A stretch of 64,000 nucleotides of DNA from Hyperoplus lanceolatus. Lineage: Eukaryota > Chordata > Actinopteri > Uranoscopiformes > Ammodytidae. The first letter of the stretch is position 1. Every line of letters begins with the position of its first letter. Made by a program: the position numbers and the translations under genes. Shown one piece after another: positions 1 through 56,092 of this stretch. The notes below the pieces were generated by a model. The model had not been told where the DNA came from. It searched no databases and saw only the letters and a list, made by a program, of their open reading frames with translations. Location: contig CM049395.1 of assembly GCA_026929865.2 (NCBI GenBank), forward strand, positions 10,747,501 through 10,811,500, read 5' to 3'.

Positions 1-1770
1 GATAATGACAGTTACAGGGATTACTTTTTTTATATGCACCTTTGTGGGACGAGGGTTCGCTAGGAGAAAAACAAACTCATGAAAACCTCAGCAAACCTTT
101 TTTTTTGTGTGAACATAACTTTAAATCAGCACCCTCTTCCTGCTGCCACTCTGTAAGTAGAATTGATTGCAGTGCAAAAGAGACATTTTAACAGCATGAG
201 AAATTCCAGTGCAACAACAAATGTGAGACATGACATCACCCAGCCAAGTCTTGGGCAAATGATCTGTACATACAGTACATCATACCACCTGCTTATATGT
301 GCATTCATGTGTAGACACTGAATTCACACATCCATTCATTCCTGCAATTATATTGGACTGAAAAAGATGGGAATTAATTGAATAAGTAGAGGAGCTGAAT
401 ATCTGACTATATCAAGACAAGATATTCATTTAGTCGTCCCACAGCCAGGATATTTACATTGTTAAACAGCTTCATTCAAATTAATCTAACAAACAAAAAG
501 AGGTATCAACGGTGTAGTGGTGACAGTATGACTGTAATGTGCACGTGCCAATAACTAACTGCGCCGTCCTTTTATCTCCTTTGCCCCTGGCCAAATCATT
601 ATCAGGCGGTCTGGTTGCAAAGATGCAGGTAGTAATCATGAACCAATCTATATTTTAATGAGCATGACATTAGATGGAAGTCTTGAATAGGCCATGCTCA
701 ACGATGCTAAGCAGAGGCATGGAGGGAAGTTTTGAGTGCTATGAAAGAAGGTAGAAACCAGCTGAATATGATTTGTGATAATTGGCATTGAGCTCTGCTT
801 TAAGCACACACACACACATCCCATTCACTCAGACAGTGTGGCTTCAATTAAAAAAGAAGCAAAGAGCATAATTATGTTTATTACTTTTTCCCCACACAAA
901 GTGAGTGCAATCGATCCCAACTGATGGCTTCAGTCTCAAGCAAGATATGACACTATATGTCATCCATCCCTAATTATTTTTGTGGAGCCTGGCAATATTC
1001 ACATTTTTCACATGCTCATAATAAGCAAACATGGGACCATATACAAAGGTTTGATGTATTATTAGCTGCTATGCATTGTGCAAAGTTATCTAAACTTGCT
1101 AATTATTAGCTGTTTGTCAATTCTTGGTTAAGCATGAACTATGCTCAGTTAACTAATGCTTTGTTAAGCATTAACAAAGCATTAATGTTATTTACAGTTT
1201 GTTAATGCTTAGTTAATGATTATTAAGCATAACAAGTAAGTAGTTTCAAAGAGGCGACAAACTGCTCCAGTACACTCATGCATGAGCTTTCATTACACGC
1301 CTGTCAGTAGTAGCCATGCTGGCTGAGTGACGTGCGACACCTAGTGGTGAAAGTCTGGTGTTACCTGTTTGGTCCGCTACTGGGCTTTTTATCAAACCGG
1401 TTTTGAAATGTTTAAATAGGGCCATCATTACCAGCAATGAAACAGGCGCAACAAAACAAACAGAACAAAGAATGTGTTAAAATAATGTGAGCGTGGGTAA
1501 GGGTGATCACCAGATTAAAATAAACTGTAGGTGATGAGCTCACAGAATGTGGACATAGGTGCGACGAGGCTGACAAAGGCCTCACCCTGGACCATAGAGC
1601 TGTTCTCACGTCTGCGTCATCATCCACATTGTGCTTTGTACTACACACAATGGTAACAGACATACTACAGTATAATAGAGCTCATTCAGTGGTGGATGAA
1701 TAATTTAGAAATTGTAATAGTGGTCATGAAAATATTCCACTACTGTAGAAGTCTTTCATATTAACATACT
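1..1770. other. Intergenic stretch, no gene seen
   Basis: AT-rich DNA with short, unconvincing open frames in every phase and no recognisable exon. It holds a short CA run near 806 and a 31-bp perfect hairpin at 1154-1184, listed separately. I recognise no transposon ends here. Confidence 0.6.
1154..1184. repeat. Short perfect hairpin
   Basis: Two 14-bp arms (TAATGCTTTGTTAA and its exact complement) are separated by the three bases GCA. The surrounding 1130-1240 repeats related TTAGTTAA/TTAATGCTT words, so it may be the end of an old palindromic transposon, but no partner end was found. Confidence 0.7.
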
Positions 1771-2151
1771 TTAAAGGTGCAGTGTGTAATATGACATCAT
1801 CAAGAAAGTTCTACAAAGTTCTAGAATGCAACGCTCCCTGGGTAACCCCACCCCTTTAGAGTAATAACAGAAGCTACAGTGGCCTTCAAGGACAAGAACA
1901 ATTCTAAATTTTAAACAATGCACCTGATGACATTCCAACTATGACACTTTCAAGATGGCGGCACTAGGTCTTGGTCCAAAATATGCAGAAATATGGACAT
2001 ATATGAGACTCTTTCTAAGGGAAAAAATAATAATTAAACAAAAAAATTCAGCTATTATGCACTAAATTAAATGTACTTATGGATATTATAATTACTTTCT
2101 ACAAAATCTGCTAGGAAATAAAACTCAACATTCTACACACTGCAGGTTTAA
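1771..2151. mobile_element. TTAA-flanked MITE
   Basis: Begins TTAAAGGTGCAGTGTGTA and ends with the near-complement TACACACTGCAGGTTTAA. TTAA at both limits is the target duplication expected for piggyBac/Kolobok-type elements. It is 381 bp with no coding capacity. Its terminal motif is one commonly seen in teleost genomes, a statement from general knowledge rather than a search. Confidence 0.8.
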
Positions 2152-2165
2152 CATTAACATTCTCC

Positions 2166-2414
2166 TTAAAGATGCTCTGAGGAACTTTCAGTTTGTTTTA
2201 ACTATTACACCCCTTTTGGATAAAAGTGGTAGTGTTTTTACTACACCATCTGTACAGTAGTTCCTGGGTGAGCGTACCCATGCCAAAGGCAGTAAGAAAA
2301 ACTACATACAAATAGCATTCTTTATACTGATGGTCTCATTTGCAGTTACATGTAATGTTTTAAAAGGAAAAATAAGTTTCAGAAATATCTAAAATTTCCT
2401 TGTAGCACCTTTAA
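2166..2414. mobile_element. TTAA-flanked MITE
   Basis: The left end TTAAAGATGCTCTGAGGAA pairs with the right end, which read on the other strand starts TTAAAGGTGCTACAAGGAA. It is 249 bp, TTAA-bounded and non-coding. It lies 14 bp from the preceding MITE and 13 bp from the following hAT element, so three insertions sit side by side. Confidence 0.7.
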
Positions 2415-2427
2415 GTATACTGTACAG

Positions 2428-4628
2428 TAGGGCTGGGCGATATGACGATATCATATTGTGGACAATATGAAAGTGTCTACCGGGGGAGATTTGGCCACAC
2501 ACGGGGGCTCTGCAGCAGAGTTATGGGCTGCAATATAGCTTGTCTGCCCTCAACAGAAGAAGCCTCATCTGTTGCTCTAGCTGTCTAGCTCCGGTGCGCC
2601 ATCACTACAGTTAACAAACCAACTCCTTGTCACGGTGGCGGAGCAGCTGGTATTAACGGTCAAAAATGTCATCGGGCAAAGGAAACTTGCTTGCTGCTTC
2701 AGCGTGCTGTTGCCGTGACGCAGAGTTGGCTTGTTTTAAGCCGCAAACTACATGGGTTAGCTCTCGTGAGCTAGCTGGCTAATAATGACATCTTTAGCCT
2801 ACTCGGGGCTTCACCCCATGGACATATAAAGAAATGGACACCAGATTGAAACATGGCGCCCATTCATTCCTATGAAAGCTGCTCATTGGCGCAGGAAAGC
2901 CACAAGGAAGTGACTTTCTGCTTCATGGGTGTCTAACACGCCCCTGAAGCATGACACGCAGGGTACGTTTCACTGACGTTGCTCATTCTCCAGCAGTGTA
3001 ACGTTATAATATGTCCGTGCATTAAGCTAAGCGGGACGAGCACAGTTGCATTGTTTATCGACCATGGAAGTATAAATTACTAATCCCCGATGATTCTCCA
3101 TGTAATCTTTAAGTTACACCCCGTCGTTGTAAAGTAATATAGTGATAAACAAAGATTCCTCCCGCCATCGGAGGCCGGGCCGGCTGAAGCAACGGTTGTT
3201 TCACTACGACTCCTTGTAGCGGCTCCACCCCTAACGGCTAAAACTGAAAATAAAACGGCTATAAAACGCTTTCGGTGGCGTTTTGAAAAGCGAAAACTTC
3301 CATCCTATTAGTACATGGTCCAAAGAATAGTATGAGCCTTTGATTGATATCCAGAAAAATTCAGCGGAGATACATTCTTGTTTGACGAAATTGTATTGGG
3401 AATGAATGGGGTCAGCACCCTATGATCTCCATTTTGTTTTACGGACCCGTCCCAGACAGTCCAATGCGTGTAATACCAGGCGTGGCCACCTGTCCATGCT
3501 GGCTGCTCCGAAAAGGCACAGTCCTGGGGGCCTGCTTCACCCCCGTGCTGTTATTGTTGGAGACAGCCAGCAAGGCTGGTTTTATGTAACTTTAAAACAT
3601 GTCAAACTTGAAAATATTATTTGTGTTGAAGCTGGAGTTAAAGAGGACCTATTATACTACTTTTCTGGTCTTAATTTCTTGTTTTACACTGATATAGAGC
3701 AACCTGACACGAATCACATCACAAAAAACTATGTAGATTTTCGGGAAGCTCTTTCTCTTATTTTGGCGATCCAGCACGTCCTGTCAACACTTGAGTGTGT
3801 GTGTTTCGGCCATCTCCGCTCCCTCCGCCTGTGCTTTGGCCATCTCCGCTCCCCCCCCCCCTCCTGCAAACCCCACTCTGTTGTGATTGGTTACCTTCCT
3901 CCCGGAACACTTTCAGTGGCGGGAAGCGCGAGCATGGACCTATAAGGACGCAAGGCAGACGCGAACAGGGAAGTGACAGCATTGCTATACATGGAAACAT
4001 CCGCGTGGTGACGACACCAAGTTACATGCAACGTCACAATATTACAAAGCGTCAAACCGCTTTGAACACGTGACTTCTCGACTAGCTAGAATAGTGTCTA
4101 GTGCTCTGCACAGACACCCCAGACGGTCAGCAGGGAATACGTCGAAATGCATGTAAGTCATTATTTGATAATTTAGTATGGTTAAGCATGACTATAAATC
4201 ATCATAACAACGTTTATAGGTCATAAAAGTCAAAAAGCATCATAGGTCCTCTTTAAAGTATTACCAGACATTTGCTCATTAGTTAATTTTGACAGCTTTT
4301 TAAAATGAAGATGAGCAAATACTGCAGGAAAATTCAAGTCTTTCATTATTTTGATATAGGCTACAATCAATTGGAAAATGTAAGCTGTTTGGTTGATGCT
4401 GTCATTTTTATTTTGCACTGCTGACTGACTAAAGTCAGACTGGTGTGGTATTTTGCACCAGTTTTTCTTTTGTATGGAAATTTAACTTCCAAGCAAAAGA
4501 TGAAAATAATCTAATGTGATTAAAGTTCAGTACGGTTATTGTAATCTATTGAATTTAAAGGAAAAATACTATACCGTGATATATACCCATATCGTGATAT
4601 AAAATTACCTATATCGTGATACGCCCTA
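2428..4628. mobile_element. Non-autonomous hAT-type DNA transposon
   Basis: The left end TAGGGCTGGGCGATAT and the right end ATCACGATAT...GCCCTA type termini are inverted repeats of the widespread hAT form (TAGGGCTGGGC). A perfect 8-bp duplication CTGTACAG flanks it at 2420-2427 and 4629-4636, as expected of hAT transposition. No transposase frame is visible in the 2.2 kb, so it is non-autonomous. A TTAA element (3638-4255) is nested in its right half. Near 2620-2760 the sequence is GC-richer, possibly the remnant of a promoter region; that part is inference. Confidence 0.9.
3638..4255. mobile_element. TTAA MITE, family A copy 1, nested in hAT
   Basis: Starts TTAAAGAGGACCTATTAT and ends ATAGGTCCTCTTTAA, a clear inverted pair with TTAA limits. 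The same body recurs at 26247-26798 (opposite orientation), 49450-50001 and, truncated, 60737-61071. Shared landmarks are a C-homopolymer near the middle (3851-3862 here) and the block CCCAGACGGTCAGCAGGGAA near the right end. ORFs in it are not conserved as proteins between copies. Confidence 0.85.
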
Positions 4629-4922
4629 CTGTACAGATGTATTAACATCAACGTGTCCAATAGCATTACTATTACTGATTATTAAAGGAAGGATTAAATG
4701 AATCATTAAAGGATTCAAATAATCATCAGGCTCTTGTTTGACATTTTATAACAATGAAGTAAAAACTATTAGTAAACATTTTTACTTATATAATGTATTT
4801 GTCTCTAAACTCAAGCAGAGTCAAAGTATAAAGTAGCATCAAATGAAAATACTTGAGTAAATAAAAAAGTACTTGGATACTGAGCACAATGTAAATGCTT
4901 GGGGTAGAAAGTAAGTTTAGGC

Positions 4923-5218
4923 TTAAAGGCCTACTTCACCAGTTGGAATATGAAGGTGTATTGAACTCGGAGATCCTATTTAGTATAAATGTGCAAAAAA
5001 TAAATAAATCGGATCACCTTAGCCTGAGAAAAGGCAGAAAGAATGTTTTATGGTCTAACCCTACAGTTTCCTTCTTGTGACATCACAGTAAGGGTTATGA
5101 TTAACAGGACAGCTGGGCCAAGGGAAGACTGAGGGAAGAAAAACCTCATTCATTATATTATAATAGTTATTTTATAATGATAGAACGCTGGTTCCGTATG
5201 GGTGAAGTATTCCTTTAA
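4923..5218. mobile_element. TTAA-flanked MITE
   Basis: The left end TTAAAGGCCTACTTCACC matches the complement of the right end, TTAAAGGAATACTTCACCC. It is 296 bp, TTAA-bounded and non-coding. Confidence 0.75.
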
Positions 5219-5709
5219 GCTTATTTGCCTTTTGGTTTGCATGCTACAGGGCTCTGCATGATTGCTCTGTTGGCTCACTGATCCACTAAAACAAAAACAA
5301 TGTGAATGTCAGCAGTGACACCTGCCTCCTGTACTCAAAGGTCAAAAGGTTTCCAGTGAAAGATGCCAATTGACAAATAAACTGGCGAATATAAATGAAC
5401 GCAAAGCAGTCTTCATGGTCTGTGAGAAATGAGTTAGAAGGGATGAGTAGAATAAGCATTTATGGAGTGTGTTTCAACAGTATAAATAATGAGACATGGT
5501 GATGGTCAAATTGTGATCCACAGATTGCTGAAATGGGTCATCAAGTAGGCACAAAGTGTATAAACCTTTTTTCTTTTATTTGGAAAATTAAACAGTAAAG
5601 GCCCATGGCCCTATACATAAAATCATATAGGGCTCATCTTCTAAATCTGCACTTCTGTTTTTAATTGTTTTGACATAAGGAACATAAGGAACAAGATGAA
5701 GTATATATA
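5219..5709. other. Intergenic stretch, nothing recognised
   Basis: No convincing ORF, RNA gene or repeat end was seen between the MITE at 4923-5218 and the Tc1 element that starts at 5710. Confidence 0.6.
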
Positions 5710-5884
5710 CAGGTGAAACTTGAAAAATTTGAATATTGTGCAAAAGTTAATTTATTTCAGTAATTCAAATTTATAGTTGAAAATAATATATTATACAGAC
5801 TCATTACATGCAAAGTGAGATATGTGAAGCATTTATTTTTTATAATTGTGATTATTATGGCTTACAGTTTATAAAAACCCCAAA

Positions 5885-6063
5885 ATGTGTATCTGTGTAT
5901 CTGAATCTGAATCTGATGAAAATGGGGGCGGGACTCGATAAGCCTTAGGCTTCTTCCGTCACCCTTCGGACAACACAAAGTATGATGTAAGATGTGAAAG
6001 AGATAATTGTGTATTGTGTGGAATTGTCCGAAAGAATAATAATAAATGAATAAATAAAAAAAT
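5885..6063 (+). mobile_element. 5'-truncated LINE 3' end in the left arm
   Basis: About 178 bp interrupt the left arm between AACCCCAAA and ATTCAAAATCTCAG; the right arm is uninterrupted at the matching place. The insert ends in an AATAAATGAATAAATAAA tail, and its GGGGGCGGGACTCGATAAGC block resembles 3' untranslated ends of teleost CR1/L2/jockey-like LINEs. Family assignment is from memory of such tails. The insertion must post-date formation of the palindrome or have escaped its duplication. Confidence 0.65.
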
Positions 6064-6176
6064 TCAAAATCTCAGAAAATTAGAATATTACATAAAATCA
6101 TTAAAAAAAGGATTTTAAATACAGAAATGTCGGCCCTCTAGAAAGTATAATCATGCATATGTACTAAGTACTTGGT

Positions 6177-6600
6177 GTGGGCCCCTTTTGCATGAATTAT
6201 TGCCTAAATGCGGCGTGGCATGGATGCTATCAGCCTGTGGCACTGCTGAGGTGTTATGGAAGCCCAGGTTGCTTTGATGTGGCCTTCAGCTCGTCTGTAT
6301 TGTTGGGTCTGGTGTGTATCATCTTCCTCTTGACAATAGTCCATAGTTTCTCTATGGAGTTCAGGTCAGGAGAGTTGTCTGGCCATTCATGCACAGTAAT
6401 ACCATGGTCAGTCAACCAGTTACCAGTGGGTTATGGTACCGTGGGCAGGTGCCAAGTCTTGCTGGAAATGGAAATTGTCATCTCCATAAAGCTTGTCAAC
6501 AGAAGCATGAAGTGCTCTAAAATCTTCTGGTAGATGGCTGTGGCGACTTTGGACTTGATAACACAGTGGACTAACAGCAGCAGATGACATGATACCTCAA
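6177..6600 (-). pseudogene. Tc1 transposase half, inverted copy (dead)
   Basis: Read on the minus strand, this repeats the transposase 3' half of the right arm, including the stretch for the catalytic-domain end (WPDNSPDLN region at about 6395-6350). It carries many substitutions, stops and shifts relative to the right arm copy, so neither is functional. The plus-strand 118-residue open frame over this interval is a shadow and not a real gene. Confidence 0.75.
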
Positions 6601-6639
6601 ATCATCACTGATCCAAATTAAATGTTGCGTTTCATTTGG

Positions 6640-7150
6640 AAATCAAGGTTCCACAGTCTAGAGGAAGAGTGGAGGGGCACAAAATCCAAGGGGCTTGAAG
6701 ACCACTGTCAAGTTTCAAAAGTCAGTGATGATTTGAGGCACCATGTCATCTGATGGTGTTGGTCCACTGTGTTATCAAGTCCAAAGTCAACACAGCTGTC
6801 TACCAGGATATGTTAGAGCACTTCATATTTCCTATCTGTTGACAAGCTTTATGGAGATGCTGAATTACTTTGTCCAGCAAGACTTGTCCACAGTGCCAAA
6901 ACCACAAGTAACTGGTTGACTGACCATGGTATTACTGTGTTGATTGGCCAGACAACTCTCCTGACCTGAACCCAATAGAGAAACTATGGAGTATTGTCAA
7001 GAGGCAGATGAGACACACCAGACCCAACAATACAGACGAGCTGAAGGCCTCTATCAAAGCAACCTGGGCTTCCATAACACCTCAGCAGTGCCACAGACTG
7101 ATAGCATCCATGCCACACTGCATTTAGGCAATAATTTGTGCAAAAGGGGC
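6640..7150 (+). pseudogene. Tc1-like transposase, C-terminal half (dead)
   Basis: Translation gives the Tc1 signature order: an 'IKSKVNTAVYQ' strand near 6775, then a degraded QQD..PxH region near 6880, then 'DWPDNSPDLNPIEKLW' near 6943-6990 containing the conserved final Glu of the DD34/35E triad, then 'RQMRHTRPNNTDELKASIKA' and 'MPHCI' at the C-terminus. Several in-frame stops (for example near 6690-6730 and 6860-6920) and shifts disrupt it. The N-terminal DNA-binding half is absent. It sits inside the palindromic element at 5710-7392. Identification rests on well-known Tc1 motifs and is secure at superfamily level. Confidence 0.85.
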
Positions 7151-7394
7151 CCAAACCAAGTACTTAGTACATATGCATGATTATACTTTCTAGACGGCCA
7201 ACATTTCTGTATTTAAAATCCTTTTTTTATTGATTTTATGTAATATTCTAATTTTCTGAGATTTTGAATTTGGGGTTTTCATAAGCTGTAAGCCATAATG
7301 AGTCTATATAATATATTAATTTCACCATTTAGGTTGAATTACTGAAATAAATGAACTTTTGCACGATATTCAAATTTTTCGAGTTTCACCTGTA

Positions 7395-8305
7395 TATTCC
7401 ACTGCACCTTTGAGCAAAGGTGTGTGTGTGTGCTTCACCAAAACATTAAGAGTGTAAATGTTTTACTAAAGAGCAATGGCTTCAGAGGGCTGGACGTCAG
7501 CCTCACCATGTTCAACGTAGACATTAGATTGCTAGTCAGCTTGTTGTAGTTCAAATGTATTACACAAAACTACTCACGCTTGTACATTGTTCCACTTAAA
7601 TACCTATAGATGATGAACCATTTATTACACCTGAATACATGACTTTAGGCTGTTATGCTAACTTCCACCCTGGTCTACAGATGAGAATTTGCTGCATAGA
7701 GTAACATTTGCAGTTTGATAGACACCTTTATTCCAAATGCCTCACTGTCACATCACTCCGTATTATTCTGCCGTATAAGTTTTCATTTCAATTTAGTCTA
7801 CAGCTCTATGATTGACAGCTTCTCGGACACCATCCAGATAGTCAGTCTGCTCTACTCCCAGCAGTTCAAGGCAAACATTAATATTTAATTTGCAAATAGT
7901 ATTTAATCAAGCTCTGATCTGTTTATATAAGATAGGAAATCCATTACCACGATGCAATATTTATCAAATTAAATGTTTAAGACAAACCCCAATAATTAAG
8001 AGTAATTATACAAGATGCCTGATTTTTTTCTTTGCCAATCAAAAATATATTTCTATTGGATACATTTCCCACAGATCTCAAAATTTCGGGAACCAGCGAT
8101 CCTGCAAACATTAGACCAATTCAGAAAGTTCTGTCACTGCAGGATTTTACCAAAATAAAAGATAAATGACAATATTTGTTCCACTTTGTTCTTGTGGTGA
8201 CTCAGTTGTGTGTGGCCACTACCCAGCTGCTGTAGAATCAAAGTGTATACACTTAAAGACCTGGAGCAGAGTGCTGACTAACTAGATCGCAATGTCCTTG
8301 TTTGT
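7395..8305. other. Intergenic stretch, no gene seen
   Basis: Contains a short TG run near 7420 and otherwise ordinary AT-rich DNA. The 74-residue open frame at 7890-8114 has no recognisable features and is probably chance. Confidence 0.55.
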
Positions 8306-13372: not shown

Positions 13373-13440
13373 AATAATATTCTGGAAATACATGCTGTTA
13401 ATGTTGACAGGTTAATTATGTGATATTGATCATTCACAAG
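13373..13440 (+). repeat. Duplicate segment A2, upstream copy
   Basis: About 68 bp (AATAATATTCTGGAAATACA onward to ATTCACAAG) are identical to 14141-14208. In this copy the segment runs straight into segment B; in the other it continues into GCCGTTAGAGCC. It is part of the composite duplication described in the findings. Confidence 0.9.
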
Positions 13441-13882
13441 GTATGCAAATTGGAACAGAGCAACTATGTTCCTATATATGTATGTATGTACGTATAAATA
13501 TATATATTTTTTTTTTATTTATACTGTATGCTGGCCATAAAGAGTAAAAAAATAAAAAGATTGTAAGGATTATAACATTAAAGGTGGCGAATCAATGTGT
13601 ACGCTCCAGTCCTATTGTTCTAAGAAACACTTCATTCAAATGCACGTTGCTGTACGTTTGATGGGGAAGTATTTTATTTTCAATCTTAACTATATGAGAA
13701 AAAAAGAAATTAATTTAGGATTTTAGCTCACTGGCTGATATGTCCAGCTGTCCACCGCGATGACCCCATCCATGTGGACCCAAATCCAAGGCCTGAATGT
13801 GACCTTATAAAACAATACATGACCGGGAGAAATTGCTTTAGTCTACCAGGCTTTTCAATCTGGATTTAAGGTTTCTGGATGT
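13436..13882 (+). repeat. 447-bp direct repeat B, copy 1
   Basis: The segment from ACAAGGTATGCAAATTGG to TTTCTGGATGT matches 16215-16661 base for base in length, with roughly seven substitutions (for example GGTGGCGAATC against GGTGGAGAATC). The distance between copies is 2779 bp. No terminal inverted repeats or target duplications bound it, so it is a segmental duplication, not a transposon. Confidence 0.93.
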
Positions 13883-16214: not shown

Positions 16215-16661
16215 ACAAGGTATGCAAATTGGAACAGAGCAACTATGTTCCTATATATGTATGTATGTACGTATAAATATATATATTTTTTTTTTATTTA
16301 TACTGTATGCTGGCCATAAAGAGTAAAACAATAAAAAGATTGTAAGGATTATAACATTAAAGGTGGAGAATCAATGTGTACGCTCCAGTCCTATTGTTCT
16401 AAGAAACACTTCATTCAAATGCACGTTGCTTTACGTTTGATGGGGAAGTTGTTTATTTTCAATCTTAACTATATGAGAAAAAAAGAAATTAATTTAGGAT
16501 TTTAGCTCACTGGCTGATATGTCCAGCTGTCCACCTCGATGACCCCATCCATGTGGACCCAAATCCAAGGCCTGAAGGTGACCTTATAAAACAATACATG
16601 ACCGGGAGAAATTGCTTTAGTCTACCAGGCTTTTCAATCTGGATTTAAGGTTTCTGGATGT
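16215..16661 (+). repeat. 447-bp direct repeat B, copy 2
   Basis: Partner of 13436-13882. Its flanks (AGTATGTGGTATAGAAACAAGG before, TCATGACTCC after) are not shared with copy 1, apart from the few bases of microhomology at each join. This is probably the source copy, because its flanks read as continuous unique sequence; that direction is inference. Confidence 0.93.
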
Positions 16662-44605: not shown

Positions 44606-44929
44606 CTTATAGAGGTCATGAACTACATGGAAATTCTTGTCTTTTGAAATGTGTTCACAGGTCAGGCAGAGGGGATGAAGGTGTCTGTCTCCGAGTGTCA
44701 GGATATGAGGAGTGGCTGTGTACAGACCCGTCGCCAGACCTCAGTCTTAAGGGGGGCATATGAAATGCATAGGGGGGCACAATTATTATTAGCCCACAGT
44801 ACGTAGGCTATATTTTTAATAGTCCTCTATTCGCGCAGCACGTAATCGTCACGTTAAACTAACCAACAGCGGTAGCCTATAGCCTACAACATCAGTCCTC
44901 ATAATGTAAAGCAATACATTACATAGAAG

Positions 44930-47900
44930 CAATGTTATGAATATCCATACACTGACACTCTACATTCCAACACACGCACTGTCAATTCACATCAATCCCA
45001 GGATGACATTACCTGTTTATCTGACTTGATTAGTGATTACGAGCATGTACAGCTGAAAACTTCTGAATACACAGATTACCAAACACAGGATATTGATCAT
45101 GATATAGACCCAGACAATAACTTTTTCTTCAACCTCAATGAGAACTGTCATTATTACACTAGTGAGCAGTTCAATGCAAAAATTGACTGTACTGGAAAAC
45201 TGTCAATAATTCACTTTAACAGCAGGCATTTGAGCAAAAATTTCCATGCAATCAAGGAATATTTACGTCAATTGTCACAACCATTTAACATAATTGCAAT
45301 ATCAGAAACCTGGATCAACCCTGAAAAGGGGGTGGACTTTGATCTAGATGGCTATGAACTGAACTACAGAAGCAGAGAGAACAAGACTGGAGGAGGTGTG
45401 GCTCTGTATGTTGATATAAACCTTAATTGCAAGGTTGTTGATGAAATGACAACTGCAATCGGAAATGTATTAGAATGTCTAACTGTTGAAATCTGCATGG
45501 AAAATAAGAAGAATGTGATTGTTAGTTGTATTTATAGAGCACCGGGTTCTGATATTGACATATTCAAGGAATGGATGGAAAAAATGTACACATTGTCAAA
45601 GCAAAAGGTCATATTTATCTGTGGGGATTTTAATATAGATCTTCTTAATCCCAATAATCACAAACCAATTGATGACTTTATCAATACAATGTACAGTCTG
45701 TGTCTCTATCCGAAAATCACCAGACCAAGCAGGATCACATCTCACTGTGCCACATTGATAGACAACATATTTACAAACGTTATAGACAATAATACAATAT
45801 GTGGATTAATGATCAATGACATCAGTGACCATCTGCCAGTGTTTCTTGTGTACAATAACAACTACAAGAGGGAAAAACGGGAGAGTACATTCAAGTACAG
45901 AAGAGTACGGACAGAAGAGGCAATACACACTTTAAAAAATGAATTATTAAATCAAAATTGGGAACCATTATATAAAGAAGAAAATACTGATAAAGGTTAT
46001 GAAATATTCTTGGGGATATTTAAATTGTTGTATGATAAATATTGCCCAATAAAAGAAATTAAAATGAAATTTAAATATTCAGATAGTCCATGGATAACTA
46101 AGGGATTACAAAATGCCTGCAAAAAGAAAAATACACTATATAAAGAATTTATAAAGCTTAGAACCAAAGATGCTGAACATAAATATAAGAAATATAAAAA
46201 TAAACTAACTAACATCATGAGAATTAGTAAGAAAGAATATTATAGAAAATTAATAGATAATAATAAAAACAATATTAAAGGTCTATGGAAGATACTGAAT
46301 AATGTTATTGGAAATGGTTCTAGACAAGTTAATTATCCACATGAGTTTATTGAAAATGATATGACTATTGATAATATGGATGATGCAGTAAATGGCTTCA
46401 ACCAATATTTTGTAAATGTTGGACTAATACTGGCTGAAAAAATACCTGTTCCTGTGAGATCTGATGACAGGATTAATGATTTCATTGACATTAATCCAAA
46501 ATCAATGTTTCTAACAGCAGTGGAAGAGAGTGAAATTATAGAGATTGTCAATAAATGCAAAAATAAAACTTCTACTGACTATAGTGACATTGATATGAGA
46601 ATAGTCAAAGAGGTAATTCACGGAATTTCGAAACCATTACCGCACATCTGTAATTTATCATTTAAAACTGGTAAATTCCCAAGAAAAATGAAAATTGCAA
46701 AAGTCATACCGCTGTACAAAACTGGAGACAAACACCACTTCACAAACCACAGGCCTATTTCACTGCTTCCTCAATTCTCAAAAATATTAGAAAAAGTATT
46801 TGCTGCTAAACTTAACAAATTCATCAATAAACACAATTTACTAACTTACAGCCAATACGGATTCAGACCCAACCGATCCACTTCATTAGCAGTCATTGAG
46901 CTAATTGAAAAGATTACAAATTCCCTGGACCAAAAGAATTATGCAGCCGGTGTTTTTATTGATCTCAAAAAAGCATTTGGTACCATAAATCATGATATAA
47001 TAATTAATAAATTAGAACGGTATGGTATCAGGAGGGTTGTATTAAACTGGCTGAGGAGCTATCTACAGAACAGGCAACAGTTTGTGAAGATGGGTGAATA
47101 CGTGTCAGCTTGTTTGGACATTGCTTGTGGGGTCCCCCAGGGGTCAGTGTTAGGGCCAATTATTTTTATTCTGTACATAAATGACATATGTAAAACATCA
47201 AATATTTTACAATTTGTGTTATTTTCAGATGACACAAATATTTGTTGTACGGGAGAGGACTTGCAGCAGCTTCTGGAGTCAATTACAACTGAAATGAGCA
47301 AATTAAAAAGGTGGTTTGACAATAATAAATTATCATTGCATTTAAGCAAAACAAAAATCATGTTGTTTGGAAATTGTAATTTAAATAGTGGTGTAAATGT
47401 CAAGAAAGATAGATGGTGTTAATATTGAAAGAGTGTATGTAAATAAATTCCTGAGTGTGACAATAGACCACAAGCTCAGCTGGAAACCTCACATAAAACA
47501 TGTTAAATCTAAACTGTCATGAAGCATCTCAGTCCTGGGTAAAGCAAAGCATATATTGGATCACAAATCATTGCATATTCTTTACTGCTCTATGATCTTA
47601 CCTTATTTAAATTACTGTGTGGAGGTCTGGGGGACCACTTACAAAAGCTCACTGCAACCACTAGTCACACTTCAAAAACGAGCCATAAGAATAATCACTA
47701 AAGCTGGATATTATGATCACACCAACCTCTTCTTTTTACATTCCCACATCATAAAGTTCAAGGACCTGGTTGAATATCAAGTTACACAAATCATGTTCAA
47801 AGCTAGAAACAAACTGCTACCAGGTAACATTCAAAAACTTTTTTTGACAGAGAGGGGGGTTACAATTTGAGGGAACAGTTAAACTTTAAGACACTGGCTG

Positions 47901-50324: not shown

Positions 50325-50399
50325 AAATATTGGGTAACACTTTAGTTCGATAGTCCACAGTTGACACTCAACAAGCCATCAGTTGATACGCAGTTGCAT

Positions 50400-50750
50400 G
50401 TCAACAGTGAATGAGTTTACATATCTCAACAGATACGTAACGTGAATTCAACTAACTGTAAGTTAACCATAAGTTGCACTATTAGTAGATGTTTAGTTGA
50501 TATTCAATAGTGATTAAGTTGATACATATTTAGAATGCATTCAACTGTCAGTTAACTATAAGTTGCATTTTTAGTAGATGTTGTTTTGTACACGTAACAT
50601 GCATTCAACTGTCAGTTAACTATTAGTTGCATTATTAGTAAATGGTTAGTTGATATTAAACAGTGAGTTAGTTGATACTCAACAAAGCTTGTCAACAAAT
50701 ATGTAACATGCATTCAACTAAGTGTTAGTTAACTATACAATAATTTTATT
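50400..50750. repeat. Subterminal degenerate repeats, left arm
   Basis: At least four diverged units share the order 'ATGCATTCAACT..CAGTTAACTATAAGTTGCA..TTAGTAGATG' at about 50440, 50530, 50600 and 50710. The mirror set lies at 55660-55990. Dense AGTTGA/TCAACT words of this kind may be binding sites for the mobilising enzyme; this is inference. Confidence 0.75.
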
Positions 50751-51066
50751 TTGTTAATTTATTTTTACAAAAACAGTCTGCAACAGACATTGTACTTTTT
50801 ATTACATGTTCTTTACAAATATTCAACTATCAGTTGAGTGTCAACTTCTAGTAAGTTGACTATCAACTTCTATTATTAACCAATTCTCAACTTACGTTTC
50901 ATATGGATCAACTTTCCCACCACTCACAAGGAACACATCTAATGAATGAACATTCAACCCTCTGTTGATCATATATGTTCATTGTAAAATAAAGATGAGA
51001 ATGTTTTATCAATCAATAGGCACCCTGTGTAGGTGACTACCTGTTGATTGTCATATGACTGTCGAC

Positions 51067-51425
51067 AAACTATCAGTCAATATTCAACTTAGCATAAGTA
51101 GACAGGTCTTGGGACTGTCAAATTAAAGTGAAAACAGTTTAGTGTCTACACACTATTAACAGAGGAAAACAGAGAAAATGGTTGACTATCAGTTGATTCT
51201 CAACAAACTATCAGTCGATGTTTAACTAAGCATTAGTAGAACGGTCTTAGGACTGTCAAATTAAAGTGAAAACAGTTTAGTGTCTGCAAACTATCAACAG
51301 AGCAAAACAGAGAAAATAGTTGATTCTCAACAAACTATCAGTCGATATTCAACTAAGCATTAGTAGAGAGGTCTTAGGACTGTCAAATTAAAGTGAAAAC
51401 AGTTTAGTGTCTGTAGACACTCTAC
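51067..51425. repeat. Threefold ~130-bp repeat, left arm
   Basis: Units begin AAACTATCAGTC at about 51067, 51205 and 51332. Each contains GGACTGTCAAATTAAAGTGA and AACAGTTTAGTGTCT. The third is truncated after TTTAGTGTCTGTAGACACTC. The mirrored array is at about 54995-55350. Confidence 0.88.
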
Positions 51426-51710
51426 AAACTAGTAACAGTACAAAATAGAGACAAGTTTTGCTCAACTGATGAGTAACACTGGATGACCCCAAAGTAAAGT
51501 TAAAAAATATATAGGCAGCATATCTGAACAGGAAAGAACATTTATTTAAAGTAAATTTAACTTTTTTCAGTAGTTACACAACATGTAGGTACACAGCAAG
51601 TACCATCAATACCTCTAAAAAAGACAATAAAACTAATGCATGTATTTATTTAGGTGTCACTTAGGCAATTGTTTAACGACAGATCGTCCAAAAATTGACA
51701 TTCAAAAAGC

Positions 51711-51905
51711 TCAGTAAAGTGTACCATAACACCCAGTACCACTAGTTATGATACTGAGCAAACATATGTAATATATAACATCAGTTCTCATGAAACGCTT
51801 TGCTATGGTAAGAAAAAGATATATAATTTTGTTATGGACCAGAATATCTGAAGCTCCTAGTAGCTCGGGAGAAATTGGATTAACAGCAATGGTGAAACAA
51901 GACAC
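51711..51905 (-). other. 64-codon ORF in left arm, read outward
   Basis: The predicted product starts MSCFTIAVNPISPELLGAS and ends in TSGTGCYGTLY. The twin in the right arm (54507-54701) differs by one residue (Ala/Thr). The sequence preceding it in the direction of reading contains CTAAC...GAATCAG, resembling a branch point and acceptor, so it may be part of a spliced exon. No known domain is recognised, and coding status is unproven. Confidence 0.3.
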
Positions 51906-52092
51906 ACTGATTCAGCAGTTAGGTTTGTAAAAAAGTAAATGTAAAATACTTATTTTCTACTCTCTCTTCCTTGAAGTGTATGTCATTGTTGATTCTCAGT
52001 AAAACATAAAAAAAAACACAACAGTGACATTTTTTTCATTATGGACTCAAGATAAAACAACTTAATTATCACTCTCCTGTGACCAACCTAGT

Positions 52093-52365
52093 TTAACCTG
52101 GTCCTGCCACTGTTATTTGAATGAGCACATTTGAATAATTTTTCGCTCTCTTTAGATCTAGTTGTTGGGTTACTAGCCACTCCAGGCCTGCTGTACTCCT
52201 CTTCAATTGAAGCAGTCGGGCTGAAGAATCCAGGAATCTTGTCCTATCACCCAGTTGATGAACATAGAAAGAAATGATCTGAGAATTACCACAAAATAGT
52301 TCAAATGCATTTTGATTTCCTTTATCTAAATCATTATAGCATTGTGGTTCCACATTAAAACACAT
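52093..52365 (-). other. 90-codon ORF in left arm, read outward
   Basis: The product begins MCFNVEPQCYNDLDKGNQ and includes a QLGDRTRFLDSSARLLQLKR stretch. The frame is open upstream of the ATG for about 15 more codons, back to TTTGATTAG, an acceptor-like site, and the 3' side reads CCAG/GTTAAA, a weak donor-like site. The right-arm twin (54047-54319) is 87/90 identical. I do not recognise the family. It may be a transposon-encoded exon or a captured host exon; being in near-identical arms, its conservation alone does not prove selection. Confidence 0.4.
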
Positions 52366-52619
52366 AATGCTTTCTATTGCTTTAATAAAATATATTTGGT
52401 ACCCTAATCAAATAAAATTCTCACTGAACCTTGTACAGATTGAAATTATTTTTTAATTAAAGAAACATGTAATCTCTATGACCATTCTACACAACACCAC
52501 GTATGCATAGACTCAGTTTTTGCTCACTTTAGACTGAAATAGCAATGTGCACTTTGAATGTGGAACATGCAAACATTTATTCAAATACAGTTTAGTGTCT
52601 ATAAACACACTTTATTTAG

Positions 52620-52740
52620 ACAGATACTTGTGAAGCTAGGCAGCGCTAGGCTCATGCTAACGTTGCTAATATAGCTAGCACGCTAGGCGCGGCGCTAATG
52701 CTAACGTGGCTATGCTAGCGGGAGGCCGCGTCGCTAATAT
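52620..52740. repeat. GCTAGC/GCTAAC-rich block, left arm
   Basis: About 15 overlapping GCTAA/GCTAG words with a CpG-rich core (GGCGCGGCGCTAATG, GGAGGCCGCGTCGCTAAT). The mirror is at 53680-53800. It is the only GC-rich part of the element and is a plausible promoter region driving transcription outward; that is inference. Confidence 0.6.
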
Positions 52741-52877
52741 ATATGACATTATTCTTACATACACAAAACGATATCTCACAAATACCTCAGTTAACTCACC
52801 AATTATTCCCTTTGGCTAATGGCAGCATACTTGTGACCACCACGGGTCTTCAGTGTGAGATGGATGGGTTGGTCAAG

Positions 52878-53543
52878 CTGGCTTTTAGCACATAGCTTTA
52901 CTGTCCAGGCACACATTAATTTTTTAGCTGCCCAGGTCAGTAAAACGAGCCCTCTCTGTCTCGAAAAAGCCCTAACCACGCTGGGGCAGTTCAAGTGCTT
53001 GAAAAAGGTGGGTAATCGTAATGTCGATAATATTCGAAAATCCAGACTCCAAACATATTATCACCTTCCCAAAGTTTAAATACATATTTATAGATGTATC
53101 TATGTTTTTTTATATAATTGTTAATATCAGCAATGGCTGTATAAACCTCTCAAGATTAGAAGACCTAAATAGGCCTACATAGAGTGGTGTGCAATACAAT
53201 GCGAACGTATAGTGGTTACTGATAAATAACAACTATAACCTGTAGGACATTATTGATAATATTGTGAGCAGAAATTATATGAAACAAATATATATTGATC
53301 TATTAATGTGTATTTTAAACTTTGGGAAGGTGAAAATATGTTTGGAGAGACTTTATTTAGGAAACATATTTCATTTCTAACTGTATCGACATTACGATTT
53401 CCCACTTTTTTCAAGCACTTGAACTCCACCAGCTTGGTTGGTAAGGGCTGTTTAAGCGAGAGGTCTCGTTCTTTACTGGCAGCTAGAGAGAAGGTTGTGT
53501 GTCTGGTCAGTAAAAGCAGCAGCTATATGCTAAAGACCGCTTG
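52878..53543. other. Diverged inner arms and loop
   Basis: 52878-53080 and 53318-53543 remain recognisably complementary (for example AGTTCAAGTGCTTGAAAAA and AAACTTTGGGAAGGTGA in each) but differ by many substitutions and gaps. The transition from near identity to divergence is abrupt, right after GGTTGGTCAAGC. The loop 53081-53317 is AT-rich and unpaired. The 74-codon frame in the left inner arm is not preserved in the right. Confidence 0.85.
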
Positions 53544-54046
53544 ACCAACCAATCCATCTCACACTGAAGACCCGTGGTGGTCACAAGTATGCTGCCATTA
53601 GCCAAAGGGACTAATTGGTGAGTTAACTGAGGTATTTGTGAGATATCGTTTTGTGTATGTAAGAATAATGTCATATATATTAGCGACGCGGCCTCCCGCT
53701 AGCATAGCCACGTTAGCATTAGCGCCGCGCCTAGCGCGCTAGCTATATTAGCAACGTTAGCATGAGCCTAGCGCTGCCTAGCTTCACAAGTATCTGTCTA
53801 AATAAAGTGTGTTTATAGACACTGTATTTGAATAAATGTTTGCATGTTCCACATTCAAAGTGCACATTGCTATTTCAGTCTAAAGTGAGCAAAAACTGAG
53901 TCTATGCATACGTGGTGTTGTGTAGAATGGTCATAGAGATTACATGTTTCTTTAATTAAAAAATAATTTCAATCTGTACAAGGTTCAGTGAGAATTTTAT
54001 TTGATTAGGGTACCAAATATATTGTATTAAAGCAATAGAAAGCATT

Positions 54047-54319
54047 ATGTGTTTTAATGTGGAACCACAATGCTATAATGATTTAGATAAAGGAAATCAA
54101 AATGCATTTGAACTATTTTGTGGTAATGCTCAGATCATTTCTTTCTATGTTCATCAACTGGGTGATAGGACAAGATTCCTGGATTCTTCAGCCCGACTGC
54201 TTCAATTGAAAAGGAGTACAGCAGGCCTGGAGTGGCTAGTAACCCAACAACTGGATCTAAAGAGAGTGAACAATTATTCAAATGTGCTCATTCAAATAAC
54301 AGTGGCAGGACCAGGTTAA
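54047..54319 (+). other. 90-codon ORF in right arm, twin of 52093-52365
   Basis: Same frame and length as the left-arm ORF, with Ser to Ala at position 27 and Ala-Lys to Val-Asn near position 74. All three amino-acid changes sit in an otherwise almost unchanged DNA stretch. It is read toward the right end of the element. Function unknown. Confidence 0.4.
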
Positions 54320-54506
54320 ACTAGTGGTTGGTCACTGGAGAGTGATAATTAAGTTGTTTTATCTTGAGTCCATAATGAAAAAAATGTCACTGTTGTGTTT
54401 TTTTTATGTTTTACTGAGAATCAACAATGACATACACTTCAAGGAAGAGAGAGAGTAGAAAATAAGTATTTTACATTTACTTGTCAAACCTAACTGCTGA
54501 ATCAGT

Positions 54507-54701
54507 GTGTCTTGTTTCACCATTGCTGTTAATCCAATTTCTCCCGAGCTACTAGGAGCTTCAGATATTCTGGTCCATAACAAAATTATATATCTTTTTC
54601 TTACCATAACAAAGCGTTTCATGAGAACTGATGTTATATATTACATATGTTTGCTCAGTATCATAACTAGTGGTACTGGGTGTTATGGTACACTTTACTG
54701 A
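54507..54701 (+). other. 64-codon ORF in right arm, twin of 51711-51905
   Basis: One residue different from the left-arm frame and followed by the same ...GTACACTTTACTGAGCTTTT sequence. Read outward. No domain recognised. Confidence 0.3.
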
Positions 54702-54994
54702 GCTTTTTGAATGTCAATTTTTGGACGATCTGTCGTTAAACAATTGCCTAAGTGACACCTAAATAAATACATGCATTAGTTTTATTGTCTTTTTTAGAGG
54801 TATTGATGGTACTTGCTGTGTACCTACATGTTGTGTAACTACTGAAAAAAGTTAAATTTACTTTAAATAAATGTTCTTTCCTGTTCAGATATGCCGCCTA
54901 TATATTTTTTAACTTTACTTTGGGGTCATCCAGTGTTACTCATCAGTTGAGCAAAACGTGTCTCTATTTTGTACTGTTACTATTTTGTAGAGTG

Positions 54995-55350
54995 TCTACA
55001 GACACTAAACTGTTTTCACTTTAATTTGACAGTCCTAAGACCTCTCTACTAATGCTTAGTTGAATATCGACTGATAGTTTGTTGAGAATCAACTATTTTC
55101 TCTGTTTTGCTCTGTTGATAGTTTGCAGACACTAAACTGTTTTCACTTTAATTTGACAGTCCTAAGACCGTTCTACTAATGCTTAGTTAAACATCGACTG
55201 ATAGTTTGTTGAGAATCAACTGATAGTCAACCATTTTCTCTGTTTTCCTCTGTTAATAGTGTGTAGACACTAAACTGTTTTCACTTTAATTTGACAGTCC
55301 CAAGATCTGTCTACTTATGCTAAGTTGAATATTGACTGATAGTTTGTCGA
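54995..55350. repeat. Threefold ~130-bp repeat, right arm
   Basis: Mirror image of 51067-51425: three blocks each with ACTAAACTGTTTTCACTTTA and AATTTGACAGTCC, at about 55003, 55129 and 55266. The number and order of units agree with the left arm, so the array predates the inverted duplication or was copied by conversion. Confidence 0.88.
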
Positions 55351-55659
55351 CAGTCATATGACAATCAACAGGTAGTCACCTACACAGGGTGCCTATTGAT
55401 TGATAAAACATTCTCATCTTTATTTTACAATGAACATATATGATCAACAGAGGGTTGAATGTTCATTCATTAGATGTGTTCCTTGTGAGTGGTGGGAAAG
55501 TTGATCCATATGAAACGTAAGTTGAGAATTGGTTAATAATAGAAGTTGATAGTCAACTTACTAGAAGTTGACACTCAACTGATAGTTGAATATTTGTAAA
55601 GAACATGTAATAAAAAGTACAATGTCTGTTGCAGACTGTTTTTGTAAAAATAAATTAAC

Positions 55660-55990
55660 AAAATAAAATTATTGTATAGTTAACTAACACTTAGTTGAAT
55701 GCATGTTACATATTTGTTGACAAGCTTTGTTGAGTATCAACTAACTCACTGTTTAATATCAACTAACCATGTACTAATAATGCAACTAATAGTTAACTGA
55801 CAGTTAGTTGAATGCATGTTACGTGTACAAAACAACATCTACTAAAAATGCAACTTATAGTTAACTGACAGTTGAATGCATTCTAAATATGTATCAACTT
55901 AATCACTATTGAATGTCAACTAATCATCTACTAATAGTGCAACTTATGGTTAACTTACAGTTAGTTGAATTCACGTTACGTATCTGTTGA
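55660..55990. repeat. Subterminal degenerate repeats, right arm
   Basis: Mirror of 50400-50750, with AGTTGAATGCAT words at about 55691, 55806 and 55871. One unit has an extra TAGT (CAGTTAGTTGAATG) compared with the left arm. Confidence 0.75.
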
Positions 55991-56092
55991 GATATGTAAA
56001 CTCATTCACTGTTGACATGCAACTGCGTATCAACTGATGGCTTTGTTGAGTGTCAACTGTGGACTATCGAACTAAAGTGTTACCAAATATTG

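Follow-up and report, generated by a model that had tools for sequence, protein, structure and literature searches.

A stretch of 64,000 nucleotides from contig CM049395.1 of Hyperoplus lanceolatus (assembly GCA_026929865.2, positions 10,747,501 to 10,811,500 of the forward strand; hereafter the window) carries a palindromic element of 5752 bp at positions 50333-56084, which is very probably a foldback DNA transposon of the cut-and-paste type, and a non-autonomous one. This reading is founded on the precise tips of the element, its 8-bp target duplications, two related empty sites and recent near-identical copies; the same palindromic architecture is found again at other places of the same assembly. 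No enzyme was found aboard in the parts scanned, and the element, like a foldback, is presumably mobilised in trans. Coordinates given below refer to the window unless a copy or locus is named by its L number.

50333-56084, no strand assigned: whole palindromic element, 5752 bp (minus-strand self-alignment and exact ends)
50325-50332, plus strand: target-site duplication AAATATTG, left copy
56085-56092, plus strand: target-site duplication AAATATTG, right copy
50333-50355, plus strand: left 23-bp tip GGTAACACTTTAGTTCGATAGTC (exact genome-wide matches)
56062-56084, minus strand: right 23-bp tip (exact genome-wide matches)
50333-53119, plus strand: left arm, 2787 bp (BLAST self-alignment and arm alignment)
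53120-53272, no strand assigned: unpaired loop, 153 bp (gap between the arms in the self-alignment)
53273-56084, minus strand: right arm, 2812 bp (BLAST self-alignment and arm alignment)
52886-53119, plus strand: inner diverged stretch of the left arm
53273-53531, minus strand: inner diverged stretch of the right arm (arm alignment)
50333-51472, plus strand: subterminal zone of the left arm with 34 GTTGA/TCAAC motifs
54945-56084, minus strand: mirror of this subterminal zone (arm alignment; motifs counted on the left arm only)
51043-51454, plus strand: overlapping repeated units of about 138 bp in the left arm (self-alignment)
52093-52365, minus strand: 90-codon open frame of the left arm, mirrored at 54047-54319 on the plus strand, with no evidence of a gene

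The element starts with GGTAACACTTTAGTTCGATAGTCCACAG and ends with the reverse complement of GGTAACACTTTAGTTCGATAGTCCACAG, so that each tip, read inward, begins GGTAAC. Its coordinates, its terminal complementarity and the presence of AAATATTG on both sides had been proposed in an earlier note made from the letters of the window, and all proved exact on re-check. In a BLAST self-alignment of 2838 columns, 50326-53119 and 53273-56091 are 95.9% identical; AATATT being its own reverse complement, this pairing also takes in some bases of the target. An inverted repeat of such size cannot be a product of chance. The same note had rightly described a nearly total inverted repeat; its arms of about 2.75 kb become 2787 and 2812 bp, and the loop of about 240 bp that it gave has to be corrected to 153 bp. 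Between the two arms, positions 1-2500 show 18 substitutions and 7 small gaps; identity falls sharply from about arm position 2530, the innermost 240 bp or so being far less similar than the outer 2.5 kb. Self-alignment also reveals repeated subunits of about 138 bp and about 90 bp within the arm, and the mirror array of the 138-bp units lies at 55089-55347 in the right arm (Tandem Repeats Finder). The element thus consists mostly of an inverted repeat, its arms are made in part of repeated subunits and it moves as a unit with target duplication, which are the features of the foldback class. The proposal of a foldback transposon with an 8-bp duplication is upheld.

Single-copy inside the window, the element is multicopy across the genome, where it forms a young family of near-identical copies. 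The assembly from which the window derives, 806,742,258 bases in 527 contigs, has 124 exact occurrences of the 23-bp tip (61 on the plus and 63 on the minus strand), against 0 and 0 for the reversed control. Two sub-types cover 32 and 89 of these 124 tips. The first 300 bp of the element gave 75 matches (40 scored of 266 candidates). By associating by eye the listed tips that are oppositely oriented and separated by no more than 13 kb, we obtained 41 exact end pairs including the window copy, 42 of the 124 tips having no exact partner. Besides the window copy, 17 of the 40 other pairs are bordered by an exact 8-bp duplication and 23 are not; further copies, for which the earlier note advised looking, are thus present in the same genome. 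Twenty of them, with the window copy, make up 21 end-to-end copies, among which 16 are palindromes with at least 1 kb of paired arm, some interrupted in one arm. Of the remaining five, L031, L049 and L050 have terminal repeats that measure about 150-290 bp, and the other two are minis. These miniature copies, L034 (192 bp) and L047 (286 bp), have exact tips, and the 8-bp duplication is exact in L047 and not in L034. Copies diverge from each other by about 1.2-1.5% in pairwise comparison, a value that speaks for a recent burst, for which we claim no date. Viral contigs contain no exact match to the 20-bp tip, a collection of genome contigs contains none to its slightly degenerate form, and the pattern of a fish repeat was likewise without a match in viral contigs. 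Full-text searches of one paper library for the letters of the tip turned up no paper on transposons, judged by title, which does not show that the family is unnamed.

The centre of the element is informative about the age of the palindrome. For a 500-bp core query (52833-53332), 40 of 233 candidate places were scored, that of the window among them, with 96-100% identity at 28 places and 87-92% at the other 12. Since 39 of the 40 share this asymmetric core over its full 500 bp, the centre must be older than the burst, and the palindrome would probably have been present already in the ancestor of the burst. The 287 leading bases of this query also align to opposite arms in the same genome, at 74-77%. 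Three shorter palindromic copies, L102, L103 and L104, of which about 1 kb of the middle was read, have lost their centre by deletion, with joints marked by a 5-bp overlap in L103, a 2-bp overlap in L104 and a 5-bp insertion in L102.

The two arms of one copy are more alike than arms taken from different copies. We compared arm positions 450-2550 in the 13 copies that retain both arms, the 8 other end-to-end copies lacking one arm or an oriented core. An initial comparison named the arms left and right; because the element can insert either way round, it was repeated with the arms oriented by their core. Within a copy, arm identity averages 99.15%, against between-copy means of 98.76% for A-type arms, 98.49% for B-type arms and 98.57% for arms of different types. 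Among copy-private variants, 36, found in 11 of the 13 copies, are carried on both arms and 121 on one arm only. With unoriented arms, both-arm instances amount to 101, compared with 33.5 +/- 9.6 when partners are shuffled (maximum 69 of 500 shuffles). In the oriented as in the unoriented tree, 7 of the 13 copies have sister arms, and the sets differ: L040 is a sister pair only in the unoriented tree and L033 only in the oriented one. The higher identity within copies, taken together with a mere seven sister pairs, indicates from sequence comparison that arm homogenisation is real but partial and intermittent.

That so long a palindrome should be an artefact of assembly, either a read-through chimera or a haplotype joined head to head, is a legitimate concern, as long palindromes are hard to sequence and this one is known here from the assembly alone. 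We nevertheless hold this explanation for scarcely tenable. The repeat ends exactly at the 8-bp duplication, its arms are separated by 18 substitutions in 2500 positions, and the asymmetric core recurs at full length at 39 of 40 scored places. Moreover, in several copies just one of the two arms is interrupted by foreign segments, which in L032 include endonuclease sequence of a long interspersed nuclear element (LINE).

The target duplications of the 41 exact-tip pairs are exact in 18, carry 1-4 mismatches in 20 and at least 5 mismatches in 3. The last three may be chimeric copies; for Galileo copies with non-matching flanks, the authors suggested chimeras and also named assembly as a possible cause (PMC3573991). 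Two sites can be compared with an element-free counterpart, each a related repeat and not an allele. The site of L035 has a related repeat in the window itself, at about 2229-2358, with one target copy. That of L048 is empty in a related repeat found in L055, which reads CAGTATTC, identical to the right duplication; the left side was therefore the altered one.

Mismatches between duplications are not distributed at random. In the 20 pairs with 1-4 mismatches, 32 of the 39 mismatched cells are a C at left positions 1-3 or a G at right positions 6-8, whereas 7.3 are expected by chance, with a maximum of 18 in 5000 simulations of random mismatches (the count leaves out the 3 of 41 pairs with at least 5 mismatches). 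Read on the strand leaving the element, this is a G outside the tip, at base 6 in 18 cases, base 7 in 11 and base 8 in 3. Having come to light in the first 35 pairs, the pattern is post hoc for these, where it is followed by 27 of 30 cells among the pairs kept; the L083/L084 pair, whose right tip is not exact, belonged to those 35 and stands outside the final 41. In the seven later pairs, 5 of 9 cells fit, compared with 1.7 expected (P 0.015), although 4 of these 9 cells come from the L099/L100 pair, which may be out of register. In total, 18 copies carry G changes (of the 41 pairs, and equally of the 38 with 0-4 mismatches), three being altered at both ends, and many altered sites mirror the terminal GG of the element across a five-base spacer.

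All these changes go to the same base, G, on the strand that leaves the element, as a strand-specific read error would, and one could think of base-calling or polishing errors near palindromes. We find this explanation unlikely. Copies below 3.6 kb are affected in 5 of 12 cases and longer ones in 13 of 29, and among the 121 one-arm private substitutions, read inward, A>C (8) and T>G (5) show no matching excess. With short copies affected too and no excess inside the arms, an error tied to long palindromes becomes less likely. In addition, the changes sit at fixed positions, and the related empty site of L048 carries the sequence of the unaltered side. Most likely the G changes reflect the way in which this end is treated by the transposase or during repair of the cut that it makes. 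More tentatively, and with no more than a modest chance of being right, the duplications would record an undescribed end-processing, in which a cut or a hairpin five bases outside the tip is followed by error-prone or hairpin-templated repair, a step that would act at insertion or at abortive excision. A pure hairpin-templating model was considered separately. In the 2594-bp L099/L100 copy, whose flanks share ATGTT out of register, the L100 right flank has ATGTT followed by GGTAACA, a seven-base mirror of the tip (TGTTACC-ATGTT-GGTAACA) that fits such a model; three copies show GGG where templating predicts GGT, and this counts against it, so the model was not adopted.

The outer part of the arms displays a conspicuous array. 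In the outer 1140 bp of the left arm, GTTGA/TCAAC occurs 34 times, against 4.7 +/- 2.1 in 1000 dinucleotide shuffles (maximum 14), with 8 same-strand pairs exactly 22 bp apart and 6 occurrences of GTTGA-N3-TCAAC. The motifs are not independent of each other, because the zone holds repeated units. This array probably represents predicted binding sites for the transposase. Several binding sites in terminal repeats have been discussed for Galileo and other transposons, at least in the sections consulted of PMC3573991.

No coding capacity for a mobilising enzyme emerged from the element. Its 8 open frames gave no Pfam match above cut-off (the sub-threshold hit was a phage domain, E 0.054), and the left arm with the loop, scanned in six frames with stops as X, likewise gave none, and so no Pfam transposase, a sub-threshold HAUS1 match (E 0.012) being disregarded. 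These profile scans agree with the initial remark that no transposase motif was seen. The 90-residue product of the open frame in the left arm matches nothing in Pfam or PDB. Across 29 full-length arm copies, this frame is gapped in 4 and free of gaps and stops in 25; its distinct codon variants are 13 nonsynonymous, 7 synonymous and 0 stop, which is indecisive because the copies are too young. No RNA family was found in the window at gathering scores.

The search was extended to the other copies, frames of at least 130 codons being listed for all 21 end-to-end ones. Long frames tested in L032, in L050 and, for one, in L054 encode LINE endonuclease or reverse transcriptase; one L050 long frame had no match, and no transposase emerged from those tested in L040, L042, L045 and L053. 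The foreign segments of L038, L046 and L035 and the first one of L050, scanned in all six frames, yielded none either, with a sub-threshold Gaa1 match (E 0.078) in L046. For L032, L040, L042 and L045, the scans cover the long frames tested of the foreign segments; the short foreign segments of L033, L036 and L037 and 15 pairs known only at their tips are outside these scans. L050, which is not palindromic, was considered as a possible autonomous copy and rejected: it holds a LINE, and its other foreign segment has no Pfam match. The interiors of the two longest pairs, seen in part, contain a LINE in L054 and, in L053, a 460-codon frame that matches nothing in Pfam, together with nested stretches that are self-inverted; these two stretches of L053, a 10.4-kb tip pair on C15, lie at 2170-4275 and 6193-7454.

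Conversely, we started from the transposases of the genome and compared their places by eye with the lists of exact tips. The P transposase (PF12017) has 15 genome matches, KDZ 18, MULE (Mutator-like element, PF10551) 8 and IS1595/Merlin 11, and none of these lies in an exact-tip pair. The autonomous relative that the earlier note hoped for was thus not found among the transposase loci and copies scanned. As no tip-bearing transposase was found, the enzyme and the superfamily are not assigned.

Among the candidate sources, a transposase of hAT, Merlin or KDZ/Zisupton type, groups with 8-bp or near-8-bp duplications, is a serious possibility, if still somewhat short of probable. KDZ (18 matches) and IS1595/Merlin (11 matches) transposases are present in the genome, and the duplication length of Merlin is 8 bp or near. 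Elements of the hAT group usually have tips beginning with CAG, whereas those described here begin GGTAAC. Not one KDZ or IS1595 match falls in an exact-tip pair, and of the 18 KDZ loci the two read, over about 9 kb each, show no exact 12-base tip: L055 has no 12-mer of the tip at up to 2 mismatches and L056 has one, at 2. In favour of these groups, Zisupton and usually hAT elements make 8-bp duplications, as stated in an excerpt of PMC12730594. Among comparable systems, the palindromic or tandem-repeat elements found at inversion breakpoints in cod, a teleost, are likewise non-autonomous, with a mean size of 1.3 to 5.8 kb; they differ in having been assigned to hAT by their authors (PMC12368964, in part).

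A foldback member of the P superfamily moved by a P/THAP9-type enzyme, as Galileo of Drosophila would suggest, is rather unlikely. The genome does hold P-transposase domains, and in L052, one of the two P loci read, the 12-base tip GGTAACACTTTA stands unaltered some 0.9 kb past a P-type frame. Yet this tip belongs to a stretch of about 255 bp resembling a miniature inverted-repeat transposable element (MITE), no convincing left end was found upstream of the L052 frame (the best has 6 mismatches in 20), L051 has only a two-mismatch 12-mer and no exact 12-base tip, and 0 of the 15 P places lie in an exact-tip pair. An autonomous member whose tips have changed could have escaped this comparison. 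Galileo does have long, internally repetitive inverted repeats, for which multiple binding sites are discussed, several subfamilies, and chimeric copies with non-matching flanks and with gain and loss of arm sequence. It differs by its 7-bp duplications, by nearly complete copies with transposase sequence between the arms, and by shorter arms, the longest reported being about 1.26 kb compared with 2.8 kb here (passages of PMC3573991). The kinship with Galileo put forward at the outset is therefore not supported, its duplication being 7 bp and the present one 8 bp. In zebrafish, the P-like Pdre2 is likewise a vertebrate cut-and-paste element with 8-bp duplications, but its 13-bp tips, CATACCTGTCAAC, differ from GGTAACACTTTA, and it has distant 12-bp repeats and a THAP9 transposase-like gene (from the part seen of PMC10983969).

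The MITE-like stretch of L052 deserves a description of its own. Located downstream of the P/THAP-type frame at L052 5633-5887, it has a left end GTTTACACTTTAG at 5633 and the other end GGTAACACTTTATAATAATG; its right tip corresponds to the first 12 bases of the family.

A Mutator-like foldback, although long inverted repeats are often of that group, appears very doubtful to us. Foldbacks of the Mutator group are reportedly known in nematodes, Tm1 of root-knot nematodes being said to be such an element, in another host group; Tetris of Drosophila virilis is also said to be a foldback transposon. The genome holds a MULE, L101, with 556-bp inverted repeats at 96%. This locus, one of eight and the only one read, has no exact 12-base tip, its one-mismatch 12-mer lying outside its inverted repeats, and 0 of the 8 MULE-domain matches is found in an exact-tip pair. 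The duplication of 8 bp also departs from the 9-11 bp that MULE usually generate. Foldback design and 8-bp duplications are combined in the TU elements of sea urchin. As to L101 itself, the element extends over 1037-5749 and has a 430-codon frame with the MULE domain inside its inverted repeats; on C8 and C17, PF10551 matches whose scores are nearly equal point to sister copies.

Several points weigh against a non-autonomous cut-and-paste transposon of foldback design with arms kept alike, and should be considered together. No transposase with these tips was found among the scanned copies and loci, and the duplication is exact in only 18 of 41 pairs. The empty site related to L035 matches the duplication at 7 of 8 bases. 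The putative binding-site role of the array relies on sequence statistics, with motifs that lie partly in repeated units. Concerning homogenisation, the arms of one copy are tree sisters in only 7 of 13 copies, the L036/L037/L048 group keeps its two arms apart in the tree, and some of the both-arm variants of L039 sit a few bases apart and perhaps reflect one event.

Retaining the non-autonomous foldback transposon as the preferred reading, we propose the following scenario. A transposase encoded elsewhere would bind the 23-bp tips together with the GTTGA/TCAAC array of the outer 1.1 kb, many sites of which are about two helical turns apart, excise the element and join it to a target cut with an 8-bp stagger. 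Since the ancestor of the burst, the arms have been kept alike by arm-to-arm copying, as the shuffling statistics indicate, possibly through hairpin repair or through gene conversion between arms. In some copies the centre is lost by deletion, giving shorter palindromes such as the three short copies described above.

Giant near-perfect palindromes are expected to be unstable, and yet this young family combines partly homogenised arms with centre-deleted derivatives. It constitutes a natural series for the copying, repair and loss of long inverted repeats in an animal germline. Large inverted repeats dispersed among many chromosomes could, in addition, serve as substrates for inversions, and may be compared with the cod case (PMC12368964, as far as excerpted). 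If the G changes are real, an old insertion would preserve in its sequence the manner in which its transposase cuts DNA.

Other mobile elements were encountered along the way. A nested sequence of 1125 bp is common to L035 (3510-4634) and L036 (1371-2494), at 99.4% and in opposite orientation; with its 24-bp inverted ends and no Pfam domain, it is a second mobile element. The window itself holds LINE and Tc1-like relics. A second palindromic element at 5711-7391, read as a Tc1-like foldback, has CAGGTGAAAC-type ends, and its part 6060-7271 shows 85% identity when aligned with its own reverse complement. A LINE on the plus strand at 44927-47867 has an 831-codon frame in which an endonuclease domain and a reverse transcriptase domain are recognised, and another frame comes after it. 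Finally, a direct repeat of 447 bp (13436-13882 and 16215-16661), 98.4% identical and 2.8 kb apart, is possibly a young element of long terminal repeat type.

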